Below, one piece after another: positions 24,240-25,582 of a DNA stretch of 64,000 nucleotides. The position numbers and the translations under genes are program-made. The stretch is from Bdellovibrionales bacterium GWA1_52_35 (lineage in GTDB: Bacteria > Bdellovibrionota > UBA1018), in NCBI GenBank assembly GCA_001769805.1, contig MEPO01000004.1:1-64000 (forward strand), in the 5' to 3' direction. Position 1 is the first letter of the stretch. Each line of letters opens with the position of its first letter. The notes below the pieces were generated by a model, which had not been told where the DNA came from, made no database searches, and worked only from the letters and a program-made list of their open reading frames with translations.

Positions 24240-24279
24240 CAAAAAAAAATACAAAAAAGAGAGATCTACACTTGATCTC
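24240..24279 (-). terminator. Inverted repeat with T-rich tract, possible terminator after pyrD
   Basis: GAGATC (24261-24266) and GATCTC (24274-24279) form a 6-bp dyad. Read on the minus strand it is followed by TCTTTTTTGTATTTTTTTTT. This could stop transcription coming from pyrD before the kinase operon promoter. The dyad also overlaps the -35 region proposed for the Lys-rich peptide gene, so it could instead be an operator. Confidence 0.45.
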
Positions 24280-24299
24280 AAAAAATTTTGAAGTAACAT
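24272..24299 (+). promoter_or_regulatory. Putative promoter of the Lys-rich peptide gene
   Basis: TTGATC (24272-24277) and TAACAT (24294-24299) are spaced by 16 bp and lie about 64 bp before the ATG at 24363. Both hexamers depart from consensus, so support is modest. Confidence 0.35.
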
Positions 24300-24362
24300 C
24301 AGAGTAAGTGTTGGAGAGTCAATCTCAAAAAAAATACCAATGCTTTAACAGGAGATAAAAAA

Positions 24363-24434
24363 ATGGCCACGAAGAAAAAAGCCAAGAAAAAAGTAGCAAA
24401 GAAAAAAGTCGCCAAGAAAGCAAAAAAGAAATAA
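24363..24434 (+). CDS. Lys/Ala-rich 23-residue basic peptide
   Basis: A complete small gene: ATG, 22 further codons, TAA. The peptide starts MATKKKAKKKVAKKK and ends with KKAKKK. It contains only Met, Thr, Lys, Ala and Val, and 15 of 23 residues are Lys. AGGAG lies 8 bases before the ATG, and a strong terminator starts 27 bp after the stop, so it looks like a real monocistronic gene. The repeat pattern resembles the basic tails of bacterial histone H1-like proteins, which suggests binding to DNA, RNA or another polyanion. No fold or enzyme function is possible at this size. The alternative, a chance frame in A-rich DNA, is weakened by the well-placed signals. Confidence 0.7.
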   Translation: MATKKKAKKKVAKKKVAKKAKKK

Positions 24435-24461
24435 GCTTCTTGGAACTATAAGTTCACAAAG

Positions 24462-24487
24462 GCCCTGGGCTTCGGCTCGGGGCTTTT
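24462..24487 (+). terminator. Rho-independent terminator after the Lys-rich peptide gene
   Basis: GCCCTGGGC (24462-24470) and GCTCGGGGC (24475-24483) pair over 9 bp with two G-T pairs and a TTCG tetraloop, followed by TTTTGCGTTT. This is a standard strong terminator for the plus strand. Confidence 0.85.
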
Positions 24488-24529
24488 GCGTTTCAGGGCC
24501 TTTTTACCGATCTTTTTAGAACAATTAAA

Positions 24530-25582
24530 TCAAAGTTCACGCCGAAGCTTGCGCCCGATCTCTGCTGGGAACCCCAGTCCCCGATAAATCCAACCCGTAT
24601 AAATCTGAATCAGATCTGCGCCGGAATCCAATCGAAGCAAAGCTTCCTCCGGATCCATGATGCCACCCACGGAGATGATCGGAAGCCGAGTCAAAGATCT
24701 GACTTTCAGCAGACGAGCGCGCGACAGTTCGGTCAGAGGGGCTCCACTCCATCCTCCGGAACGGTCCCGGAACTGCCCTCCAAGGGTATTTGTAAGCACC
24801 CACCCCCCCATTCCCGAGGCTTCCATGGTCTGAATCAGGTGATCAAGAGCCGCATCGTCCAGTTCCGGAGCGAGTTTCAGAAGAACCGGAGGCCTGGCAG
24901 GCCAGGTTTTGACGACCGAGAGCACCGCTTCAATGATCGGTTTGAGACTTTCCGACGTCTGCAACTGCCGCAATCCGGGCGTATTCGGTGAACTCACATT
25001 GATGACCAGGTAATCCGCAAGACCTTCGAAGAAGGAAGCGGCTCTGGCATAATCCAACGGTGCTTTCTCAAGCGGGGTCTGTTTGTTTTTGCCAATATTC
25101 ACGCCCACTCTGAAATCAGAGGGAAGCAATGATCGACCATGGGCGAGATTGCCGGCCACTACTGCAGCGCCCAACCCATTGAAGCCCATACTGTTGAAAA
25201 GTGCATTTTCTGCCGGGTCACGAAAAAGACGCGGACGTTCGTTCCCGGGCTGGGGCAAAGGAGTGACCGTGCCGATTTCAGCAAAACCAAACCCAAGATG
25301 GGGCAGCGTCTGGACGATTTCAGCGTCTTTGTCAAATCCCGCAGCCAGTCCGATCGGAGAAATGAAATCCATGCCCATCACATGGACACGCAAGCTCTCT
25401 TCAGCTTCTTCAAGACAGGGATCCGAAGCACCACTCAAAATCCGGATTGGAGAATAGCCGATCCGGGGCGAGCAAATCTGAAAAAGCTTTAAAACATGGA
25501 CCGCAAAAACATGCACCCGCTCCGCATCGAAAAGGAAGAGCACTTTTTTCAAACATGCCCAGAAGATCCGCCTTGGATTCAT
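24530..25582 (-). CDS. pyrD: Dihydroorotate dehydrogenase (quinone)
   Basis: Fourth step of pyrimidine synthesis, dihydroorotate to orotate with quinone as acceptor, 350 residues. The N-terminal helix typical of membrane-associated class 2 enzymes is present (MNPRRIFWACLKKVLFLFDAERVH). The FMN/substrate region shows GLAAGFDKDAEIV, FAEIGTVTPLPQPGN and RLFRDPAENALFNSMGFN. The catalytic-Ser segment is NVSSPNTPGLRQLQ, and ISVGGI lies near the end. Its start overlaps the stop of the upstream methyltransferase by 4 bp (ATGA), so the two are translationally coupled. Confidence 0.97.
   Translation of the reverse strand: MNPRRIFWACLKKVLFLFDAERVHVFAVHVLKLFQICSPRIGYSPIRILSGASDPCLEEAEESLRVHVMGMDFISPIGLAAGFDKDAEIVQTLPHLGFGFAEIGTVTPLPQPGNERPRLFRDPAENALFNSMGFNGLGAAVVAGNLAHGRSLLPSDFRVGVNIGKNKQTPLEKAPLDYARAASFFEGLADYLVINVSSPNTPGLRQLQTSESLKPIIEAVLSVVKTWPARPPVLLKLAPELDDAALDHLIQTMEASGMGGWVLTNTLGGQFRDRSGGWSGAPLTELSRARLLKVRSLTRLPIISVGGIMDPEEALLRLDSGADLIQIYTGWIYRGLGFPAEIGRKLRREL

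Follow-up and report, generated by a model that had tools for sequence, protein, structure and literature searches.

The peptide described here resembles several known basic proteins, such as Chlamydia Hc2 (HctB) and Bordetella BpH1 (PF07382), which are likewise built from short, Lys-rich repeats whose spacers are Ala, Val, Thr and Pro, vary in length through their repeats and lack a hydrophobic core. Hc2 is a DNA- and RNA-binding protein (PMC2848022), and charge neutralization is one recognized route to nucleoid compaction (PMC11894785). Hc2 is 165-237 aa long, contains Arg and has pentamers with two basic residues, whereas the mini-peptides that we report have 15-28 aa, three Lys per repeat and almost no Arg. 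Another likeness is to the C-terminal KPAA tail of Pseudomonas AlgP/PhaF, a DNA-binding, low-complexity Lys/Ala sequence with an effect on the positioning of granules (PMC9239181). That tail differs in belonging to a protein of 352 aa that also has an N-terminal domain, and in its KPAA rather than KKKxA repeats.

Coxiella ScvA, like the mini-peptide, is a very small and basic bacterial peptide; it has been described as DNA-binding, but has 30 aa and a different, non-repeat sequence. The mini ribosomal proteins bS22, bL37, bTHX and eL41 also resemble the mini-peptide in being tiny, very basic and often unannotated, but they contain Arg, are non-repetitive and have an essentially fixed length. 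ScvA is specific to the small cell variant (PMC6759588), and bS22 and bL38 are tiny basic proteins often missed by annotation (PMC10618245).

We analyzed a locus in a window of 64,000 nucleotides (the whole stretch of DNA under study), for which the original prediction had proposed a self-contained gene encoding a short Lys/Ala/Val peptide. The predicted 72-bp frame and the AGGAG ribosome-binding site upstream of its ATG were both confirmed (Table 1). The peptide was said to have 15 Lys among its 23 residues; our recount gives 14. It has no acidic residues, and its hydrophobic residues are limited to Ala and Val. ATG-initiated ORFs of 15-39 aa that have a Lys content of 50% or more occur once in the 64-kb window and not at all in 20 dinucleotide shuffles, and an exact-pattern search of the genome returned this ORF as its single match.

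Table 1. Features of the mini-gene locus, with positions counted from the first letter of the window.
Feature	Position	Strand	Remarks
Perfect dyad GAGATC-N7-GATCTC	24261-24279	+	Overlaps the -35 box; candidate operator
Promoter TTGATC-N16-TAACAT	24272-24299	+	Same spacing in most orthologs; unique exact genome match
5'UTR hairpin	24306-24345	+	24306-24314 pairs with 24337-24345; predicted fold
Shine-Dalgarno AGGAG	24350-24354	+	8 bases before ATG
ORF, 23 aa, MATKKKAKKKVAKKKVAKKAKKK	24363-24434	+	ATG to TAA (stop 24432-24434); orthologs and coding pattern
Intrinsic terminator hairpin	24457-24488	+	14 pairs and T-run; starts 22 nt after stop
pyrD (dihydroorotate dehydrogenase)	24530-25582	-	Tail-to-tail neighbor; marks conserved locus

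Short Lys-repeat ORFs, which the original prediction had suggested seeking in the same place in relatives, were found there. Pattern searches covering the class returned ORFs of this type from the majority of its genomes, and by our tally 49 of 55 sampled genomes of the order encode one with 15-28 aa. The six genomes without a match have listed completeness values of 56, 78, 82, 86, 87 and 95%, and several genomes that seemingly lack the mini-gene carry variants such as MATKKKTTKKKATVKKKTAKKKTTKKK. The named carriers are metagenome-assembled genomes labelled Oligoflexia, Bdellovibrionales, Bdellovibrio sp. or Bacteriovoracaceae. The immediate 3' neighbor is pyrD, on the opposite strand, in 32 of the 42 orthologous loci (several of the remaining loci lie near a contig end or come from more distant families), and the 5' neighbor is often a sensor kinase or ntrY-like kinase; the names pyrD and kinase at this locus are our own assignments. 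The synteny with pyrD speaks against both a mobile element and a chance ORF, and the latter is excluded because conservation spans the order. On sequence evidence, the Lys/Ala/Val 23-mer ORF is thus a real, overlooked stand-alone gene.

Some matches were set aside. One was a long unrelated protein picked up by the search pattern, and many phylum-wide matches have out-of-frame ends (GTAG/GTAA) and probably represent the 5' parts of longer Lys-rich frames, as checked for some of them. A phage origin was considered for three matches on viral contigs, of which one is the start of a larger ORF and another either forms the last part of a 57-aa ORF or is a frame within that ORF. Separately, genome G009 holds several mini-genes, including a pyrD-linked copy: three 21-aa copies, MATKKKA[AT]KKAAPKKKTAKKK, have a different common leader, AACCTAGGAGGCCTCA, and there is one further 20-aa copy. 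Eight loci of the phylum and order hold longer Lys/Ala repeat ORFs of 33 to about 260 aa, some of which match HC2 (PF07382); these may be related to the mini-genes or be functional replacements for them.

Across the 42 orthologs, pairwise codon differences at positions 1, 2 and 3 number 3114, 2113 and 8463, a count that is partly biased in that the search patterns left several Lys codons free only at the wobble position; the less constrained interior of the ORF retains the same amino-acid alphabet. The 880 ortholog residues after Met comprise 565 K, 183 A, 95 T, 21 V, 10 S, 3 P, 2 G and 1 R, with K runs mostly three long and separated by TA, VA, AT or AA. In the neighboring pyrD and kinase Arg is more frequent than Lys, so that Lys is specifically kept in the peptide. 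Taken together, the concentration of differences in third positions and the Lys:Arg ratio indicate that the peptide is under selection and that Lys is kept over Arg. We also observed that Lys codons before G are AAA in 73 of 77 cases in the mini-ORF and its orthologs, compared with 203 of 341 in the long open frames of the window, a bias that perhaps avoids SD-like internal AAGG.

The plausible promoter of the original prediction was borne out as TTGATC-N16-TAACAT. A sigma-70 scan with a cut-off of 9/12 reported no promoter upstream of the mini-ORF because this site scores 8/12 against the consensus; it was recognized through comparison with relatives. The same element lies upstream of the ORF in most orthologs, and in many of them 12 of 12 bases are identical. 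The promoter scores of the orthologs are inflated by the choice of the best match over positions, but such a choice would not by itself produce exact agreement of 12 bases at a single spacing. The overlapping dyad, a possible operator, recurs imperfectly in close relatives (for instance at L018 and L019), and a genome-wide search for a second exact site found none and revealed no regulon.

A hairpin is predicted just before the Shine-Dalgarno sequence, which in relatives is mostly CGGAGGA. The mean z-score of this region is -2.7 over 40 orthologs, whereas 31 ordinary genes of the window give -0.3; the window's own hairpin, with a predicted 9-pair stem, is weaker (z -1.9). RNAalifold found no consensus structure for the aligned ortholog 5'UTRs because the arms have no sequence in common across species and slip out of register. 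In place of this alignment approach we swapped arms between species, using fixed 16-nt arms, no fitting and 20,000 permutations. Arms of the same species pair with a mean of -9.3 kcal/mol, compared with -4.6 kcal/mol for cross-species arms, and none of the 20,000 permutations was as good. The arms of the window's hairpin are further apart than those of the orthologs and thus outside the reach of this test. Across the orthologs the predicted pairing is kept through compensatory change, although the sequence is not.

A hairpin terminator after the stop had also been predicted, and it holds up: the region 24430-24510 folds at -30.2 kcal/mol (z -2.8), and the ortholog terminator regions have a mean z of -4.4 (n=40). 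By its position the terminator may also serve pyrD from the opposite side. The lack of conservation of start, stop and terminator that the original prediction named as evidence against the gene did not occur in relatives. Promoter, 5' hairpin, Shine-Dalgarno sequence, ORF, terminator and synteny are all conserved and the codons drift in third positions, which strongly supports the self-contained gene. What the sequence supports is an independent unit with its own promoter, a conserved 5' hairpin and Shine-Dalgarno sequence, a selected Lys-only peptide and its own terminator.

Searches for known relatives of the peptide gave no match to Pfam up to an E value of 10, a 23-aa low-complexity query possibly being too short to score, and none to NCBIfam profiles; genome G000 has no match to PF07382 (HC2). 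With Rfam covariance models at the gathering score, the whole window yielded tRNAs only and nothing at the mini-gene. We found no description of a Lys-only mini-gene in the open-access literature, outside of which lie most subscription papers, so an earlier description is possible. The peptide shares with HC2-type proteins the Lys/Ala-rich short repeats and a length that varies by repeats. It may work like an H1 tail; by profile it is not an HC2 member.

We lean, with somewhat better than even confidence, toward a gene with transcription and translation of its own, encoding a minimal, unstructured polycation that would bind nucleic acids like an H1 or Hc2 tail. Its composition (Lys-only, with H1/Hc2-like repeats) is best read as that of a nucleic-acid- or polyanion-binding peptide. 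The 5' hairpin beside the Shine-Dalgarno sequence would stabilize the mRNA or set the translation rate. The peptide would stay in the cytoplasm, its Lys triplets would bind nucleic acids, and it would neutralize phosphate charge on DNA, RNA or both. Lacking a folded domain, such a disordered polycation would function in the manner of the Lys/Ala C-terminal tails of histone H1 and Chlamydia Hc2, but in a form shortened to a few repeats. In support, the Lys-triplet repeat style resembles the Lys-rich pentamers of Hc2, and relatives hold longer Lys/Ala repeat proteins, some of them matching HC2. Against it, the HC2, other Pfam and NCBIfam profiles give no match, a peptide with no more than a few repeats may bind DNA only modestly at cellular salt concentrations, and charge alone does not account for the conserved preference for Lys over Arg. 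DNA and RNA would be the most abundant candidate targets, with the ribosome and polyphosphate as rival readings.

In the ribosomal reading, which we consider unlikely, the peptide would occupy an rRNA pocket as a small ribosomal or ribosome-associated protein specific to the lineage, like bS22, bL37, bTHX and eL41. Size and charge fit this role (bS22 is 61% Lys/Arg and is unannotated in the Borrelia genome; PMC10618245), and a similar mini-gene of Chitinophagaceae comes after rplU. However, a repeat-like peptide of variable length (15-28 aa) with near-interchangeable spacers is unfit for a specific pocket, and no PDB chain matches it at E values up to 10, in a search that low complexity limits. 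Arg, moreover, is almost absent (Lys:Arg 565:1), unlike in the known mini ribosomal proteins. It is quite unlikely that the peptide instead binds polyphosphate or another non-nucleic polyanion and helps to organize polyP granules. Pseudomonas requires the Lys-rich, H1-like tail of AlgP to space its polyP granules (PMC9239181), and a Lys-only composition would also suit Lys-specific modification; yet AlgP carries a separate N-terminal domain, and the neighbors at our locus (pyrD, rsmB and two-component genes) offer no polyP link.

The product could also be the RNA itself, a small regulatory RNA of about 180-200 nt with the ORF incidental or auxiliary. A compact predicted transcript with a conserved 5' hairpin and terminator is consistent with this, but we regard it as very unlikely: the differences fall in third codon positions, AAA and AAG interchange, Rfam gives no match, and what is conserved is the amino-acid alphabet and the Shine-Dalgarno sequence, not the sequence of the hairpin arms. 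The original prediction had further offered a leader that reports the lysyl-tRNA level; such a peptide would sense lysine or lysyl-tRNA and attenuate a downstream gene. A short, Lys-rich frame followed by a terminator would suit such a leader, but the gene order contradicts it and makes it extremely improbable. The terminator directly follows the stop, both pyrD and rsmB run antisense downstream of it, and it is 2.5 kb to the start of the next substantial plus-strand gene; the idea of an attenuator fails because no co-directional gene follows the terminator, and the antisense arrangement recurs in relatives.

Beyond the order, we scanned 84,980 species, one genome per species, and found at least 115 stretches, at least 87 of which encode ORFs of 32 aa or fewer, with a pattern that favors short frames and with a few ORFs cut by the locus end. 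Among the matches listed, similar mini-genes lie at other conserved loci in Gammaproteobacteria, Chitinophagaceae and other phyla. In a group of proteobacterial genomes MATKKKAAKKKATKKKAAKKK is encoded between rpiA and an EVE-like gene (L037, L024 and relatives), and in Chitinophagaceae MATKKKAAKKKAAPKKKAAKKKK is encoded downstream of rplU, ahead of a polX-like gene (L027, L093 and relatives); we assigned all these gene names from sequence. Two families of other phyla, searched with the exact pattern only, have matches in 9 of 60 and 4 of 61 genomes, one of the four being out of frame. The mini-gene of each lineage keeps its own site, and some 20 low-complexity residues fit homology and convergence alike. 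It is a real possibility, to which we give slightly less than even weight, that many phyla hold overlooked stand-alone genes for Lys-only 'mini-H1' peptides of 15-30 aa, lineage-conserved components of chromatin or RNA-protein complexes that would be missing from annotation because they are small and of low complexity.

The mini-genes match no family model tried and trypsin in standard proteomics destroys the peptides, so a possibly abundant component of the cell may be overlooked. Our results show that a nearly sequence-free polycation of 15-28 residues can be conserved order-wide as a single gene with its own regulation. Should the peptide bind DNA or RNA, few natural nucleic-acid-condensing proteins would be simpler, and it would offer a direct test of the share that plain charge neutralization has in nucleoid compaction.
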